From NCBI RefSeq assembly GCF_025244825.1, contig NZ_CP104263.1:1240001-1304000 (forward strand): a stretch of DNA of 64,000 nt. Reading direction: 5' to 3'. The notes beneath the pieces were generated by a model. The model was not told the origin of the DNA. It searched no databases and saw only the letters and a program-made list of their open reading frames with translations. The DNA is from Arthrobacter jinronghuae. Lineage in GTDB: Bacteria; Actinomycetota; Actinomycetes; Actinomycetales; Micrococcaceae. This document shows positions 14,132 to 22,737 of this stretch, one piece after another (position 1 is the first letter of the stretch; every line of letters starts with the position of its first letter). The translations under genes and the position numbers were made by a program.

Positions 14132-14279
14132 AGGCTCGGTGCAGGGAACCCGCACCCTTTTGCGCCGAAAGGGTTTCCCTACACCTCGCAGGCTCGGTGC
14201 AGGGAACCCGCACCCTTTTGCGCCGAAAGGGTTTCCCTACACCTCGCAGGCTCGGTGCAGGGAACCCGCACCCTTTTGG
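14132..14279 (+). repeat. 58-bp tandem repeat, 2.5 copies, upstream of frr
   Basis: A 58-bp unit starting AGGCTCGGTGCAGGGAACCC begins at 14132, 14190 and 14248; the third copy stops after about 31 bp. Each full unit contains AGGGAACCC and GGGTTTCCCT as an imperfect inverted pair with CGCACCCTTTTGCG between them, so each could fold. Copies are nearly identical, which suggests recent expansion. There are no spacers, so it is not a CRISPR. The frr promoter probably lies just after it (14280-14340). Confidence 0.85.
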
Positions 14280-16634: not shown

Positions 16635-18161
16635 CTAGCGCGCCCCTGTGCCGGTTCCCGGACGGGGCCGGTCCAGAGGTTCCGGCGTGTGCAGCTGCGC
16701 CATGAACTTCGCCGCCCCGTGCGGCGCTGATCCGGCGGTCAGCCGGGACACGACCACCATCACGGCAAACGCTGCGGGAACCGTCCAGGCTGCGGGCTGT
16801 TCAATCCAGGCGGGAACGCCGGCACCTGCCCGCGGCAGGATGGCCGCGGCGGCCATTGCCCCGCCGCACAGCAGCCCGCCGGTCAACATCCCGGCTCCGG
16901 CTCCGGCGGCCGTCAACCGCCGCCACCAGATTCCCAGCACCAACAGCGGACACAGCGTGGACGCGGTGAACGCGAACACCATTCCAATGCTCCCGGCCAG
17001 GGCGGAGGATTCGGTGAGCAGGGCAACGGCCAGCGGTACGACGGCGGCCAGCACCGCGGAGACGCGGAACCCGGACACACTCCCGCGGAAGAATTCCTGG
17101 CTGATCACGCCCGCCAGCGAGACCGTCAATCCGCTGCTGGTGGAGAGGAAGGCCGCGAAGGCGCCGGCCGTTACCAGCGCCGCCAGGAGATCCCCGGAGA
17201 CGCCGTCGAACACCCGGCCCGGAAGTAGCAGCACCATCGAGTCTGCTGCTCCGCCGCCCGCCAGGTCCGGAGCATAGATCCTGCCCAGCACCCCGTAAGT
17301 GATCGGAAAGATGTAGAACAGGGACAGCAGGCCCAGGACAATCAGCGTGGTCCGCCGGGCCGAAGGTCCGTCGGGGTTGGTATAGAAGCGGACCAGCACG
17401 TGCGGCAGGCCCAGCGTGCCGCAGAGCAGCGCGATGCTCAGCGAAATGTTGCGGTACAGCGGGGCGTGGGTCTCCGGATTCAGTGCCTCCGCCAGGAGCT
17501 GGGTGCCGCCGTCGCCGGGCGGGCCGTCACCCGCGAGGCGGAAGAGGATAAACAGCACCGGTACGGCTATCGCCACCAGCTTCAGCCAGTACTGGAAAGC
17601 CTGGACAAAGGTGATGGAACGCATCCCTCCGGTTACCACGCTCAGGCAGACGACGCCGGTCACCACCAGGCAGCCGAGCCATGCAGGCAGCCCGGTGGTG
17701 ATGCGCATGGTGAGGGCAGCGCCGTGCAGCTGCGGGACGATGTAGAGCCAGCCGATGGCGATCACCAACAGGCTGGTCAGGCGCCGCATCGGAAGGGATT
17801 CCAACCGGGCGGAGGCGAAGTCCGGAACGGTGTAGGCACCGGACCGGCGCAGCGGAGCCGCCACGAAGAGCAGGAGCATCAGGTAGCCGCCGGTATAGCC
17901 GATGGGGAACCAGAGCGCGTCCACGCCGGATGCGACAATCAGTCCGGCCACGCCCAGGAAACTCGCCGCGGAGAGGTATTCGCCTCCAATCGCCGAGGCA
18001 TTCCACCAGGGTTTCACCGTCCGGGAGGCCACATAGAAGTCACTCGTGGTCCGCGAGACCCGCAGCCCGTAGAAACCGATCAGCAGAGTCGCTGCGGACA
18101 CCAATGCCAGTGCCGTGTAGCCGATGCCCGGGCTCATGCCCGCGGCTACATCCCAGTCCAC
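16635..18161 (-). CDS. Sodium:solute symporter family transporter
   Basis: A 508-aa SSS-family permease with about 13 membrane segments. Family signs are SDFYVASRTVKPWWNASAIGG near the N terminus, EYLSAASFLG, the GLPHVLVRFYT motif and the conserved AAFLSTSSGLTVSLAG. It resembles acetate/monocarboxylate (ActP/MctC) permeases and shares the LPHVL-RFYT motif with the ActP protein at 21109-22737. GTG 18161 is used as start, three bases after the stop of the upstream DUF485-like gene. It is the last gene of the operon kinase-regulator-DUF485-symporter, which suggests the two-component system controls its uptake substrate. Confidence 0.88.
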   Translation of the reverse strand: MDWDVAAGMSPGIGYTALALVSAATLLIGFYGLRVSRTTSDFYVASRTVKPWWNASAIGGEYLSAASFLGVAGLIVASGVDALWFPIGYTGGYLMLLLFVAAPLRRSGAYTVPDFASARLESLPMRRLTSLLVIAIGWLYIVPQLHGAALTMRITTGLPAWLGCLVVTGVVCLSVVTGGMRSITFVQAFQYWLKLVAIAVPVLFILFRLAGDGPPGDGGTQLLAEALNPETHAPLYRNISLSIALLCGTLGLPHVLVRFYTNPDGPSARRTTLIVLGLLSLFYIFPITYGVLGRIYAPDLAGGGAADSMVLLLPGRVFDGVSGDLLAALVTAGAFAAFLSTSSGLTVSLAGVISQEFFRGSVSGFRVSAVLAAVVPLAVALLTESSALAGSIGMVFAFTASTLCPLLVLGIWWRRLTAAGAGAGMLTGGLLCGGAMAAAAILPRAGAGVPAWIEQPAAWTVPAAFAVMVVVSRLTAGSAPHGAAKFMAQLHTPEPLDRPRPGTGTGAR

Positions 18162-18164
18162 CGG

Positions 18165-18551
18165 CTACCGCCCGTCCACCAGGTCGCGGTAGCGGGTTTC
18201 GTTCCGCTGGGCACTGAGCACGTAAAGCAGTCCACAGCCGATCACCAGCGGGTAGACTCCGACGCCGAGCAGGATCCACGGCGCGGGCACCCCGAGGATC
18301 GACAGCTCGGCTATCACCGGCAGAAAGGCCAGCAGCACCGGCACGCTGAGCAGGATCAGCAGGAATCCGCCGCCCACCACCAGCGCCAGCCGGAGCTGGC
18401 TGCGGATCAGCGAGCCGATGATCAACTCGCCCACCTCGGACTGTTCGTCCAGTTCGCGCGAGACGGGGAACGGTGCTGCCCCCGTGCCGGGAGCGGTCAC
18501 CCGGACCCGCTGGGGGACCGGGGCCGAACCGGGCATGGCGTCCCCGCTCAT
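18165..18551 (-). CDS. DUF485-like small membrane protein
   Basis: A 128-aa protein with a Pro/Ala-rich cytoplasmic N terminus and two membrane helices (about residues 52-75 and 88-112), ending in a charged tail NETRYRDLVDGR. This is the size and layout of DUF485 partners of acetate symporters, although similarity to the clear DUF485 protein at 20741 is low. Its ATG overlaps the regulator stop (ATGA), and the symporter follows after three bases. ATG 18536 is an alternative start. Confidence 0.7.
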   Translation of the reverse strand: MSGDAMPGSAPVPQRVRVTAPGTGAAPFPVSRELDEQSEVGELIIGSLIRSQLRLALVVGGGFLLILLSVPVLLAFLPVIAELSILGVPAPWILLGVGVYPLVIGCGLLYVLSAQRNETRYRDLVDGR

Positions 18552-19288
18552 GGCGTGGGCCGAACCCGGCCGGCGTCAAGCGTGTTGCGCACGGCAGGCA
18601 GATGCCGGCGGCTGACCGGAAGGTCCACCTCGCCCAGCTGCACGCTTGCCCGACCTCCGCTCAGCCGCACCTGGCGGATATGGTTCCGGGACACCAGATA
18701 GGACCGGTGGATGCGGACAAACCCGGCGCCTGCCCACTGCTCTTCCAGATCCGCGAGGGGGACCCGGATCAGGTAGCTGGCCTCGGCCGTATGCAGCCGG
18801 GCATAGTCGCCCTGCGCCTGGACATAGCGGATGTCGCCGCGCGGGATGATCCTCGTCGTCGCGCCCTGGACCACGGTGACGACGTCGGCGTCCTCCGTCT
18901 CGGTATCGGCTGCGAGTTCGCAGATCCGGCGCACCGACTCGGACAAGCGCTCCGGCCGCACCGGCTTCAGCAGGTAGTCCAGGGCCGCAAGGTCAAAGGC
19001 CCGCAGCGCCTGGTCCTCGTCCGCGGTCACGAAGACGACGGCGGGCGGGCGCTGCCTGCGGCTCAGGGCCTTGGCGATCTCCAGCCCGGAGAGAGCCGGC
19101 ATATGGATGTCGAGGAAGACGGCGTCGACGTCGCGGGCCTCGATCTCCTGCAGCGCCTGGGCGCCGCTGGAGGCCCGGTACACCGTACCGATCCGGGCAT
19201 CCTGTCCCAGGAGATAGGCGAGTTCCTCGACGGCGGGGGCTTCGTCGTCGGCAACTACGACGGTGAGCGGCCGGAGGGGTTTGCGCAT
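18548..19288 (-). CDS. LytTR-family response regulator
   Basis: A 246-aa regulator. The receiver domain covers ~8-125, with phospho-acceptor Asp60 in DAVFLDIHMPALSG, acidic pair DDE at 14-16, Thr in VTADED and Lys in YLLKPVRPERL. A LytTR DNA-binding domain fills the C terminus (IRYVQAQGDYARLHT, FVRIHRSYLVSRNHI). LytTR proteins bind direct repeats near CCGTT or ACNGTT. Start ATG 19288 lies 11 bases below the kinase stop; an upstream in-frame start would overlap the kinase. Together with the kinase it forms one operon with two transport genes. Confidence 0.92.
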   Translation of the reverse strand: MRKPLRPLTVVVADDEAPAVEELAYLLGQDARIGTVYRASSGAQALQEIEARDVDAVFLDIHMPALSGLEIAKALSRRQRPPAVVFVTADEDQALRAFDLAALDYLLKPVRPERLSESVRRICELAADTETEDADVVTVVQGATTRIIPRGDIRYVQAQGDYARLHTAEASYLIRVPLADLEEQWAGAGFVRIHRSYLVSRNHIRQVRLSGGRASVQLGEVDLPVSRRHLPAVRNTLDAGRVRPTP

Positions 19289-19298
19289 GGACAACAGA

Positions 19299-20510
19299 TT
19301 ACGCGTTCGTCGGGCGGTTCTCCGGCTGCGACTTGGGCACACGCATGGTGATCAGGGTGCCGGCGCCGGGAGCGGTGTCAATCACGAGGCCGTGGCTGTC
19401 GCCGTACACCTGCCGCAGCCGCACATCGACGTTGCGCAGGCCCACGTGGTCCCCGTCCGCATGCCCGGCCAACACGGAGCGCAGGTACTCGGGGTCCATT
19501 CCCACCCCGTTGTCCTCGATGGTGATCACCGCGTCCGCTCCGGCGTCGACGGCTGCAATGCTGATCCGCCCCTGTCCGTCCTTGGCTTCCAGGCCGTGGC
19601 GGACGGAGTTCTCCACCAGCGGCTGCAGGGACAGGAAGGGGATGACGGTTCCCAGCACTTCCGGGGCGATCTGCAGGGCCACCTTGAGCCGTTCCCCGAA
19701 GCGCGCACTTTCGAGCAGCAGATACCGGTCCACTGATTCCAGTTCCTGGGCGATGGTGGTGAAGTTGCCGTGCCGGCGGAAGGAATACCGGGTGAAATCG
19801 GCGAACTCGACCACCAGCTCCCGGGCGCGGGCCGGATCCGTATTGATGTAGGAAGCGATGGCGTTCAGGGAGTTGTAGATGAAGTGCGGACTGATCTGCG
19901 CGCGAAGCGCCCGCACTTCGGCCTCCATCAACTGCGCCCGTGAGGCATCCAGTTCCGCCAGCTCCACCTGTGTGGCGAGCCAGGCTGCCACTTCATTGGC
20001 TGCCCGGACCAGCCCGGCCCGGACCGTCGGGGCGAACACCGCCACCGTGCCCACCGTCTGGCCGTTGACCGGAAGCGGGGAGACCAGCAGTTCGCAGCCA
20101 CTGTCCTGCAGGCCCAAGGCCCGCAGTGCTGCACCCCGGAAGACCCGCGTCCTGCCCGATTCCAGGACCAGTGCGGCGGCGGATAACAGCCGCTGGCGCC
20201 GGAACGGCGTGTCGTTCACGGAACCGTCCCATGCGAGTACCGCCGAGGCGTCGGTGATCACCAGGGTGTCGCAGTCCAGCAGGTCGCGCAGGTGCCGGCT
20301 GGCCTTGCGGGCCCCGGCCGGGGTCAGGCCCGCACGAAGATGAGCCGAGGCGAGCGACGCCGTATGCAGGGTCGCGTAGGTGGCCTGCTCGGCGTCGGAC
20401 CCGAGGTCCCGCTGCGAGCGGCTGAGGCGGAAGCCAAGCGCGCCCACGGCCGCGATGGTCAGGACGGCGACGGCGCAGACCAGGGCTATATCGACGGCGG
20501 GACTGAGCAT
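19299..20510 (-). CDS. LytS/YehU-type sensor histidine kinase
   Basis: A 403-aa kinase. One N-terminal membrane helix (~5-28) is followed by a GAF-like domain (~50-165) and a His_kinase domain with ISPHFIYNSLNAI, phosphorylated His at ~209. The ATP-binding lid and N-box read SLQPLVENSVRHGLE, and the G box VITIEDNGVGMD. TAGGGT ends six bases before ATG 20510, so translation may be leaderless. The phased CCGTT sites begin where the -35 would be, which suggests activation by its own regulator. The single helix and GAF domain suggest a cytoplasmic ligand or a signal passed by the symporter. Confidence 0.92.
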   Translation of the reverse strand: MLSPAVDIALVCAVAVLTIAAVGALGFRLSRSQRDLGSDAEQATYATLHTASLASAHLRAGLTPAGARKASRHLRDLLDCDTLVITDASAVLAWDGSVNDTPFRRQRLLSAAALVLESGRTRVFRGAALRALGLQDSGCELLVSPLPVNGQTVGTVAVFAPTVRAGLVRAANEVAAWLATQVELAELDASRAQLMEAEVRALRAQISPHFIYNSLNAIASYINTDPARARELVVEFADFTRYSFRRHGNFTTIAQELESVDRYLLLESARFGERLKVALQIAPEVLGTVIPFLSLQPLVENSVRHGLEAKDGQGRISIAAVDAGADAVITIEDNGVGMDPEYLRSVLAGHADGDHVGLRNVDVRLRQVYGDSHGLVIDTAPGAGTLITMRVPKSQPENRPTNA

Positions 20511-20543
20511 GCACCAACCCTAGCGGCCCGGCGGTCGTCCCGG

Positions 20544-20610
20544 CCGTTCAACACCGTTCGGCGCCGTCGAGCGCCGTTCACCGCACGGAACCAACCGTTC
20601 ACCGACGGTT
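20544..20610. promoter_or_regulatory. Phased CCGTT array, probable LytTR binding sites
   Basis: CCGTT(C) starts at 20544, 20554, 20574 and 20595, with CCGTCGA at 20564. The first four are exactly 10 bp apart and the last is 21 bp further. The last copy is also half of a dyad, AACCGT-N6-ACGGTT (20593-20610). AlgR/LytTR regulators recognise CCGTT-like direct repeats, and a LytTR regulator is encoded in the adjacent operon. The array abuts the predicted kinase promoter on the minus strand and lies about 140 bp above the DUF485 gene on the plus strand. Confidence 0.65.
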
Positions 20611-20649
20611 TGGCGCGGCAGGCAGACACCCGCGCGGGGACTGTAGGAA

Positions 20650-20665
20650 AGTGATGAGCGTCACA
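20650..20665 (+). promoter_or_regulatory. Crp/GlxR-type palindrome upstream of DUF485-actP
   Basis: AGTGA-TGAGCG-TCACA matches the TGTGA-N6-TCACA consensus in nine of ten half-site bases. It is 76 bp upstream of the DUF485 start. Crp/GlxR proteins respond to cAMP and control acetate and carbon uptake genes in actinobacteria. A weak promoter (TTGCAC 20668, ATAGGT 20694) follows. Confidence 0.6.
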
Positions 20666-20740
20666 GCTTGCACAGCGTCGTGTCCTGACCTCCATAGGTG
20701 GATGCAGCGCGCGGAGCGGGCTCCCAACAGAGGAGGAACA

Positions 20741-21112
20741 ATGGCTGAAGAGCAGCCGGTTTCACACGCTGCGCACCCGGAACAGGTGGATTTCCGGGAG
20801 GTCCAGAGCTCGCCTGAGTTCCAGGAACTGCGCAAGCGCCAGCGAAGCTTTATTTTCCCCATGGCCGTGGTTTTCCTGGTCTGGTATTTCGCGTACGTCC
20901 TTCTGGCGGACTACGCCCACGAATTCATGTCCACCCCGGTGATCGGCAACATCAACGTCGGCCTGATCCTGGGCCTGCTGCAGTTCGTCAGCACATTCGG
21001 TATCACCATGGCGTACGTCAGTTACGCCAACCGCAAGATGGATCCCATTGCGGCGGATCTCCGGCGCGACCTTGAGGCCCATGGAGTAAGCCGTCCGGAG
21101 GAGACCAAGTGA
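20741..21112 (+). CDS. DUF485 membrane protein, ActP partner
   Basis: A 123-aa protein starting at ATG 20741 after AGAGGAGGA. DUF485 is recognised by SPEFQELRKRQRSFIFP and two membrane helices (VVFLVWYFAYVLLADYA and GLILGLLQFVSTFGITMAYV), followed by a short cytoplasmic tail. DUF485 proteins are almost always encoded directly before acetate symporters and may assist their assembly or activity. Its TGA overlaps the actP GTG by four bases. Confidence 0.9.
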   Translation: MAEEQPVSHAAHPEQVDFREVQSSPEFQELRKRQRSFIFPMAVVFLVWYFAYVLLADYAHEFMSTPVIGNINVGLILGLLQFVSTFGITMAYVSYANRKMDPIAADLRRDLEAHGVSRPEETK

Positions 21113-22737
21113 ACACCCTGCACATTTCCGCCGCCACTGAGGTCACGGCCGAGTCCATTAAGGACACCGGCCTGCTGAACATGATCATCTTCGGCGTCTT
21201 CGTGGCCGTCACCCTCGTGGTGGTGCTGCGCGCGAGCCGCAACAATAAGACAGCGGCCGACTACTACGCCGCCGGCCGGTCCTTTACCGGGCCGCAGAAC
21301 GGCACCGCCATTGCCGGCGATTACCTGTCCGCGGCCTCGTTCCTCGGCATCGTCGGGGCCATTGCAGTCAACGGCTATGACGGCTTCCTGTACTCCATCG
21401 GCTTCCTTGTCGCCTGGCTGGTGGCCCTGCTGCTGGTTGCTGAAATGCTCCGCAATACCGGCAAGTTCACCATGGCCGATGTGCTCTCCTTCCGGCTCAA
21501 GCAGCGCCCGGTCCGGATTGCGGCAGCCATCACCACCCTGGCCGTCTGCTTCTTCTACCTCCTGGCGCAGATGGCCGGCGCAGGCGGACTGGTCTCCCTG
21601 CTGATGGGCATCGACAGCAAGATCGGGCAGTCCCTGGTGATTACCGTCGTCGGCGCCCTGATGATCATTTACGTATTGATCGGCGGCATGAAGGGCACCA
21701 CCTGGGTGCAGATCATCAAGGCCTTCCTGCTGATTGCCGGCGCGGCCATCATGACCGTCTGGGTCCTGGCCATGCACAACTTCAATCTCTCCGACCTGCT
21801 GGGGGCAGCGGTCGAAACCACCGGCAACCCCGCCATCCTGGATCCGGGGCTGCAGTACGGCAAGTCGGATACCTCCAAGCTGGACTTCGTCTCCCTCGGA
21901 CTGGCACTGGTACTGGGCACCGCCGCCCTGCCGCACGTGCTGATGCGCTTCTACACGGTGCCCACCGCCAAGGAAGCCCGGCGCTCCGTTGTATGGGCCA
22001 TCTGGCTGATCGGCATCTTCTACCTGTTCACCCTGGTCCTGGGCTACGGCGCTGCGGCGCTGATCGGCTCGGAGGCCATCAAGGGCGCTCCCGGCGGCGT
22101 GAACTCGGCAGCACCCCTGCTGGCGTTTGCGCTGGGCGGACCGGTGCTGCTGGGACTCATCTCCGCCGTCGCCTTCGCCACCATCCTGGCGGTGGTTGCT
22201 GGCCTGACCATCACCGCAGCGGCCTCCTTCGCCCACGACATCTACGCCAATGTCATCCGCAAGGGACAGGTGGACGCAGACGGAGAGGTCAAGGTAGCCC
22301 GAACCACTGTGGTGGTAATCGGCATCATCTCGATCCTGGGCGGTATCGGCGCGCAGGGGCAGAACGTAGCCTTCCTGGTGGCCCTGGCCTTCGCAGTGGC
22401 GGCCAGCGCCAACCTGCCGACCATCGTCTACTCGCTCTACTGGCGGAAGTTCTCCACCCAGGGTGCGCTGTGGAGCATGTACGGCGGCCTCGGATCCGCG
22501 ATTGTGCTCATTGCGTTCTCGCCGGTTGTCTCCGGTGCGGAAACTTCAATGATCGCCGGCGCGGACTTCGACTGGTTCCCGCTGAACAACCCGGGAATCG
22601 TGTCCATCCCGCTGGCCTTCTTCCTGGGCTGGCTGGGTACCGTGCTGGATAAGAACACCGAATCCGCCATCAAGCAGGCGGAGATGGAAGTCCGGTCCCT
22701 GACCGGCGTCGGCGCCGAGAAGGCCGTCGACCACTAA
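21109..22737 (+). CDS. actP: Cation/acetate symporter ActP
   Basis: A 542-aa SSS transporter with about 13 membrane helices. Features are ADYYAAGRSFTGPQNGTAIAG near residue 50, DYLSAASFLGIVGAIAVNGYDG, the GLALVLGTAALPHVLMRFYT motif and AGLTITAAASFAHDIYANV. This pattern matches ActP/MctC, which import acetate or other short monocarboxylates with Na+ or H+. GTG 21109 overlaps the DUF485 stop. The GlxR-type site upstream fits acetate-linked control. The protein shares several motifs with the symporter at 16635 but is clearly divergent. Confidence 0.93.
   Translation: MNTLHISAATEVTAESIKDTGLLNMIIFGVFVAVTLVVVLRASRNNKTAADYYAAGRSFTGPQNGTAIAGDYLSAASFLGIVGAIAVNGYDGFLYSIGFLVAWLVALLLVAEMLRNTGKFTMADVLSFRLKQRPVRIAAAITTLAVCFFYLLAQMAGAGGLVSLLMGIDSKIGQSLVITVVGALMIIYVLIGGMKGTTWVQIIKAFLLIAGAAIMTVWVLAMHNFNLSDLLGAAVETTGNPAILDPGLQYGKSDTSKLDFVSLGLALVLGTAALPHVLMRFYTVPTAKEARRSVVWAIWLIGIFYLFTLVLGYGAAALIGSEAIKGAPGGVNSAAPLLAFALGGPVLLGLISAVAFATILAVVAGLTITAAASFAHDIYANVIRKGQVDADGEVKVARTTVVVIGIISILGGIGAQGQNVAFLVALAFAVAASANLPTIVYSLYWRKFSTQGALWSMYGGLGSAIVLIAFSPVVSGAETSMIAGADFDWFPLNNPGIVSIPLAFFLGWLGTVLDKNTESAIKQAEMEVRSLTGVGAEKAVDH

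Follow-up and report, generated by a model that had tools for sequence, protein, structure and literature searches.

Genes at the locus

The window analyzed here is a stretch of 64,000 nucleotides of Arthrobacter jinronghuae (contig NZ_CP104263.1), and all coordinates refer to it. On its minus strand lie the genes for a LytS-type histidine kinase with His_kinase and HATPase_c domains (19299..20510) and for a response regulator that combines a receiver domain (PF00072, 80 bits) with a LytTR domain (PF04397, 74.2 bits), both above cut-off (18548..19288). These are followed in the same direction by genes for a 128-aa protein with no Pfam or NCBIfam match (18165..18551) and for a second sodium:solute symporter (16635..18161). 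Diverging from the kinase gene on the plus strand are genes for a DUF485 protein (20741..21112) and a transporter (21109..22737), which form the putative target operon. The transporter scored 911.6 bits against model NF058657, whose cut-off is 670, and can be assigned to MctC-type monocarboxylic acid transporters at the equivalog level. A tandem repeat with a 58 bp unit (2.5 copies, 100% matches) was also found at 14132-14278.

A scan based on the regulator, with one genome per species, returned 217 relatives, and the best 80 of these were kept as family loci. Named records among them belong to Arthrobacter, Paenarthrobacter, Pseudarthrobacter, Glutamicibacter, Paeniglutamicibacter and Zafaria, and the closest relative, Arthrobacter sp. 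zg-Y238 (L001), has an identical regulator. Relatives of the kinase, the DUF485 protein and the transporter accompany the regulator in all 80 loci. The 128-aa protein and the second symporter are each present in 79, and the locus without them (L048) lies on a sequence that ends at a contig edge. Since the second symporter is found downstream of the regulator in these 79 loci, the system is flanked by two symporters. The gap between the kinase and regulator matches is at most 135 bases; exceptions are L009 and L044, with partial kinase matches, and L018, with a gap of 1,768 bases.

The regulator is the sole LytTR match of the genome at E values up to 0.001, so any LytTR sites at this locus would have one candidate protein. 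Its score against the BtsR model NF008677 is 141.3 bits, under the cut-off of 246, and the kinase gave no Pfam match to 5TMR_LYT at E values up to 0.001; by these tests the two proteins do not classify as orthologs of BtsR and BtsS.

A regular array of repeats between the divergent genes

Read directly from the sequence, CCGTT starts at 20544, 20554, 20574 and 20595 and CCGTC at 20564, with steps of 10, 10, 10 and 21 bp between successive starts. These are the positions given in the first-pass annotation of this DNA. Positions 20543-20579 were reported by TRF as a tandem repeat with a period of 10, 3.7 copies, 75% matches and 10% indels. Four copies of CCGTY in 10-bp steps occur once in the 3,640,817-bp genome, at the array itself, and the reversed-pattern control gave no match. 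In 20,000 dinucleotide-preserving shuffles of 20511-20740, the longest 10-bp CCGTY chain had three copies, in a single shuffle, and four copies never appeared. A four-copy ladder that is unique in the genome and never reproduced by shuffling indicates that the regularity of the array is not due to chance.

The units differ considerably in strength when scored with a matrix built from the conserved half-sites of the family (L001-L005 were omitted in the clade and free-spacing scans). Since this matrix comes from the conserved sites themselves, the scores are partly circular and support the regularity, but not independently. All units are on the plus strand. Predicted half-site 1 (CCGTTCACCG, 20574..20583) scores 13.6 and predicted half-site 2 (CCGTTCACCG, 20595..20604), 21 bp away, scores 14.4. 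An extra predicted half-site (CCGTTCGGCG, 20554..20563), which starts 20 bp ahead of half-site 1, scores 15.5 and is the top-scoring 11-mer of the window, rank 1 of 127,978 positions on both strands. The in-register unit at 20564..20573 (CCGTCGAGCG) scores 6.9, and its CCGTC has a C at the fifth core position, where all 160 of the 160 family sites have a T. The outermost unit (CCGTTCAACA, 20544..20553), which directly adjoins the kinase promoter's -35 region, scores 5.2. Four consecutive sites had been proposed; that the four are equivalent is not supported, because the CCGTC unit lacks the invariant T and the unit at 20544 is weak. An imperfect unit after the pair (CGGTTTGGCG, 20606..20615, score 8.6) starts 11 bp past 20595. 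It was missing from the first-pass list and is present in our own genome only, among ten clade loci.

A 120-aa open reading frame (20292-20654) overlaps the array. A coding repeat was considered and rejected because the 10-bp unit is not a multiple of three and copy changes would shift the frame. Rfam gave no match to an RNA element in 20400-20800 at E values up to 1.

A conserved pair of predicted LytTR half-sites

In the spacers of the 80 loci we looked for pairs of half-sites with 21-bp spacing, located 45-70 bp upstream of the palindrome GTGA-N6-TCAC with at most one palindrome mismatch. With the spacing imposed in this way, site 2 reads CCGYT in all 80 loci and site 1 in 78, an A replacing the G in the two exceptions (L048 and L067). 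GTGA-N6-TCAC is exact in 80 of 80 loci. Since spacing and palindrome range were both imposed in this search, the spacing was retested freely: matrix matches exactly 21 bp apart were found in 76 of the 80 loci, and other spacings were 22 bp in 11 loci, 20 bp in 10, 41 and 43 bp in nine each and 10 bp in two. The reverse strands held seven matrix matches in total and never two in one locus, and mononucleotide shuffles gave 0.066 matches per locus. The locus shows the two direct repeats, roughly 21 bp from each other and close to the probable target promoter, that characterize a LytTR operator.

A regulator match at E values up to 1e-30 was found in 34 of 149 genomes of an order-level sample. Of the 27 genomes that belong to the same order but not to the family, all but G068, G107, G134 and G149 contributed a region upstream of the regulator, 23 in total. 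Three of these 23 distant loci have adjacent DUF485 and mctC genes, and all three carry a strong 21-bp pair; exact GTGA-N6-TCAC was found in none of the three and a TANNNT-ATG signal in two. Among the other 20 distant loci, a kinase could not be detected in one, and L183 has a 21-bp pair in which one partner is weak; in the rest no 21-bp pair was found at the score used.

The repeats of the array are very probably LytTR half-sites, as had been proposed. Their core resembles that of AlgR (CCGTTCGTC), the genome has a single LytTR match, and CCGYT pairs with 21-bp spacing occur in 78 of 80 loci. The pair 20574+20595 looks like an ordinary LytTR operator. The site at 20595, placed correctly in the first-pass annotation, had been described as a fifth site added to four consecutive ones. 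It is not the addition, since 20574 and 20595 are the family-wide pair and the additions are the units from 20544 to 20564.

The pair motif alone does not stand out in the genome. The bare pattern CCGYTC-N15-CCGYTC has 11 genomic matches, versus 26 for the reversed pattern, and is not enriched. A fuller pair pattern has three matches with zero mismatch and 17 with up to one, versus 13 for its reversed pattern. The other two perfect matches lie between clpC and a GNAT gene and inside a suf gene, names which are our own interpretation of the open reading frames. The former (L185:2471-2501) is a 21-bp pair on the minus strand between clpC-like and GNAT acetyltransferase-like genes, and could be either a chance occurrence or a second target; we claim no further target from the genome-wide regulon search.

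The transporter promoter is the probable target of the pair

A CRP/FNR-type palindrome, AGTGA-N6-TCACA, is predicted at 20650..20665 on the mctC side. The distance from site 2 to this palindrome is 55 bp in seven loci, 56 bp in 36, 57 bp in 36 and 62 bp in one. The kinase start lies anywhere from 19 to 145 bp away from site 1, and 34 to 108 bp separate the palindrome from DUF485, with starts extrapolated from protein matches in the 80 loci. The first-pass annotation had placed the array upstream of the kinase gene, which is correct, and it also lies upstream of the divergent DUF485-mctC genes. The annotation had further suggested cooperative oligomer binding to the sites and strong autoregulation, which would make the kinase promoter the main target. 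The pair, however, holds its position relative to the palindrome on the mctC side (79 of 80 loci have 55-57 bp), whereas its distance to the kinase start varies widely, which suggests that the main target of the pair is probably the DUF485-mctC operon rather than the kinase gene.

On the mctC side, columns counted from the base just ahead of GTGA are conserved at -2, 0 and 2 and, weakly, from about -27 to -23. In 79 of 80 loci an A stands two bases ahead of position 0 of the palindrome. The CRP consensus does not require this A. Together with the weak conservation at -27 to -23, it suggests a -10 element (NANAGT; GAAAGT at 20647-20652) that overlaps the palindrome, and we propose CAGACA-N18-GAAAGT (20623..20652, plus strand) as the DUF485-mctC core promoter. 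If this placement is true, the LytTR pair would lie about 55-85 bp upstream of the transcription start, a usual position for an activator. The palindrome would lie over the transcription start, where a CRP/FNR protein would be more likely to repress than to activate.

In four loci (L014, L015, L048 and L067) the DUF485 start falls 34-37 bp after the first base of the palindrome by both estimates of the start, and this short distance fits a palindrome over the core promoter better than classical upstream activation by CRP. In nine further loci just one of the two estimates is less than 50 bp from the palindrome. The passage available on mctC and GlxR in C. glutamicum does not mention a GlxR site at mctC.

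A probable leaderless kinase promoter next to the array

A TANNNT element located six or seven bases upstream of the start codon is a mark of leaderless actinobacterial promoters. The kinase gene has such a -10 element, TAGGGT (20517..20522, minus strand), six bases before the ATG at 20510-20508. Across the family, TANNNT precedes an in-frame ATG in 79 of 80 loci, by six bases in 58 and by seven in 21, and the only locus without this signal is L044, with its partial kinase match. When the 40 bases before each start were shuffled in 200 rounds, the signal appeared in 7.6 of the 80 loci on average and in 17 at most; the test admitted a mean of 6.1 start codons per locus. This difference supports the leaderless kinase start proposed in the first-pass annotation, and the kinase transcript is very probably leaderless. 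A plain promoter scan of 20480-20780 found no consensus sigma-70 promoter, nor did it detect the proposed DUF485-mctC core promoter.

Numbering from 20510 as +1 puts the outermost unit of the array at -34 to -43, with the conserved pair at -64 to -94. In seven carriers, 34-35 bases separate the outermost unit from the kinase CAT if the shifted unit of L098 and the degenerate unit of L095 are counted, and the variable number of units sits between this unit and the pair. The constant distance could mean an anchored site or merely an unchanged flank. Helical phasing of the pair relative to the kinase start was also considered. It is not convincing, with p about 0.14 at 10.5 bp for 29 distinct distances; among the seven periods tried, 9 and 11 bp gave p values of 0.02-0.03, uncorrected.

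These observations bear on the possibility that the array is a cooperative autoregulatory element, in which the regulator sits on all of the consecutive 10-bp sites and acts mainly on the kinase promoter. The array does abut the -35 region of a conserved leaderless promoter, and its outermost unit keeps a constant distance from the kinase CAT in the seven carriers. However, this distance may just reflect a flank free of indels, two of the four units are weak, the phase between pair and kinase start is unconvincing, and the position of the conserved pair is constant with respect to the mctC side and not to the kinase. We consider this explanation unlikely.

Extra predicted half-sites in the family and in the Arthrobacter clade

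Matches upstream of site 1 were counted with a threshold set at the second percentile of true sites, omitting offsets seen in a single locus. A third site at -22 of site 1 was found in 11 of the 80 loci, seven named Glutamicibacter and four Arthrobacter. A third site at -20 was found in nine: L001-L003, four loci named Paeniglutamicibacter and two more named Arthrobacter. Other offsets were -29 (three loci), -10 (two) and -30 (two). This distribution shows that a third half-site about two turns upstream recurs, and that one-turn copies are restricted to the clade of the window. Among the loci with Glutamicibacter or Arthrobacter names, L034, L041, L046 and L059 have a third half-site 22 bp upstream of the pair, and L034, L046 and L059 have an additional match at -29.

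Genus-level DNA matching found the spacer in 19 of 29 genomes. Three in-register units lie upstream of site 1 in our own genome, in L097 and in L101, four in L099 and two in L100; the spacers of L096 and L093 are the same as those of L097 and our own genome. L095 has three in-register units, two of them degenerate, plus an off-register match at -46, and L098 has four plus one shifted at -62. No in-register unit was found upstream of site 1 in L102, L103 and L104. The strongest extra copy is at -20 in our own genome, L095, L099 and L100 and at -30 in L098 and L101, while the -30 and -10 copies of L097 are equally strong. A kinase tree of 14 sequences, with nine supported rows, groups L101, our own genome with L095, L096-L098, and L102 with L099 and L100. 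Extra units are carried by eight of the nine clade rows, the exception being L102, which is nested. Its lack of units is most simply explained as a loss, although separate gains are possible.

L099 and L100 differ by two whole 10-bp units. Such whole-unit copy changes, the degenerate copies and the missing units in the nested L102 are all features that would be expected if slippage at a functional half-site had produced the extra units as a neutral 10-bp minisatellite, so that only the pair matters. On the other hand, each of the seven carriers keeps at least one extra unit scoring above 10 in the 10-bp register, and two-turn upstream third sites recur in other lineages. Over 22 units, the core columns also match site 1 in more cells (137 of 154) than the non-core columns do (30 of 66), a contrast that is biased towards selection by construction because the units were recognized by their core. 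We hold the neutral explanation as a tentative alternative. It shares the pair with the explanation that we prefer, and our confidences in the two overlap. The preferred explanation takes the phased ladder as a clade-specific elaboration on an ordinary LytTR core, with a possible function.

Comparison with known systems

In E. coli, the LytS/LytTR system BtsS/BtsR controls the pyruvate transporter gene btsT (yjiY), for which CRP is also required according to the accessible text (PMC10653868). The published yjiY probe contains, in the part of the article available, three CC[GA]CT motifs with steps of 20 and 21 bp (PMC4847170). These are the same steps as in 20554-20574-20595, although the probe does not have the 10-bp ladder of the array. 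The E. coli transporter belongs to the CstA family, as stated in the available text (PMC7730263), whereas MctC is of the SSS type. With no 5TMR_LYT match in the kinase and a regulator below the BtsR cut-off, the Arthrobacter system differs from BtsS/BtsR; it may work alike, yet is not a formal member. E. coli sites score poorly on the family matrix (best forward score 5.4; a reverse-strand match scored 7.9). The BtsR motif is reportedly ACC(G/A)CT(C/T)A.

The AlgR core of P. aeruginosa (CCGTTCGTC) shares CCGTTC with the sites found here, and AlgR sites need not be repeats at a distance of 12 bp, according to the accessible text (PMC4064291). YpdB of E. coli is similar in that two direct repeats at yhjX are bound sequentially and cooperatively by monomers ('AB-BA'), but the available description gives two sites only, of another sequence (GGCATTTCAT) (PMC4847170). 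CoxC/RcoM operators have three direct repeats at about two turns. One-turn copies are not described in the accessible part of that article, and CoxC is a membrane MHYT regulator, whereas the protein encoded here is a response regulator (PMC11347149).

Several direct repeats near one helical turn apart are also known from BldC, which binds 9-bp direct repeats of varying number (PMC5859096), and RemA, which protects 7-bp regions with 3-bp intervals (PMC8481266), as given in the accessible text of these articles. Another protein of the BldC or RemA type, oligomerizing on phased direct repeats, could in principle occupy the array. However, neither is a LytTR protein, both recognize AT-rich repeats as far as the available text goes, and the units of the array are GC-rich and have the same core as the neighboring conserved pair, which makes such a protein highly improbable.

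According to the accessible part of a review, AgrA loops contact successive major grooves, which makes full occupancy of contiguous 10-bp sites by LytTR domains doubtful. Proteins on adjacent 10-bp sites would be expected to clash, and alternative two-turn pairings appear more plausible than full contiguous occupancy. Literature searches for LytTR spacing and tandem sites found no one-turn LytTR ladder, and those for MctC or Arthrobacter with LytTR found no study of the present system.

A proposed model of the operator

The explanation that we favor, with a probability of roughly 0.7, is that this stretch is the operator of the neighboring BtsR/AlgR-like LytTR regulator, in which the pair acts on DUF485-mctC and the units multiplied in the clade add a third site. 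The site pair, its spacing, the synteny, the leaderless signal and the unit-wise copy changes come from comparison of the loci. Protein binding, the sign of regulation, the ligand (a monocarboxylate, e.g. pyruvate or acetate) and whatever part the weak units may play are inferred.

In this model, 20574 and 20595 would form the basic two-site target, acting on the divergent DUF485-mctC promoter together with the CRP/FNR-type palindrome. The 10-bp unit would have been multiplied towards the kinase gene in the Arthrobacter clade. This would have placed the strong site 20554 two turns from the pair, giving a three-site operator (20+21 bp) as in other lineages, and the weaker units between and beyond (20564 and 20544) would extend as far as the -35 region of the leaderless kinase promoter. 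The kinase may sense a monocarboxylate or related signal and phosphorylate the regulator, which would then fill the pair and after that the third site, activating mctC. Outer copies may feed back on the operon of kinase, regulator and symporter.

A more speculative and rather unlikely extension is that the array is a helically phased LytTR ladder of variable number, anchored to the mctC promoter through the pair and also to the leaderless kinase promoter. Gain and loss of units would then retune the response while staying on the same DNA face, and the regulator would use overlapping alternative two-turn pairs (20544+20564, 20554+20574 and 20574+20595) rather than occupy all of them simultaneously.

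The core of this operator is of an ordinary, known type, and the novelty in detail, the one-turn extra copies, is a modest variation. For the sole LytTR regulator found in an Arthrobacter genome, the analysis indicates a likely operator as well as monocarboxylate uptake as a likely target. The related loci also represent a natural series of promoters of like layout with zero to about four extra in-register half-sites. Such a series could show whether LytTR proteins use one-turn spacing and how the number of sites sets the response.
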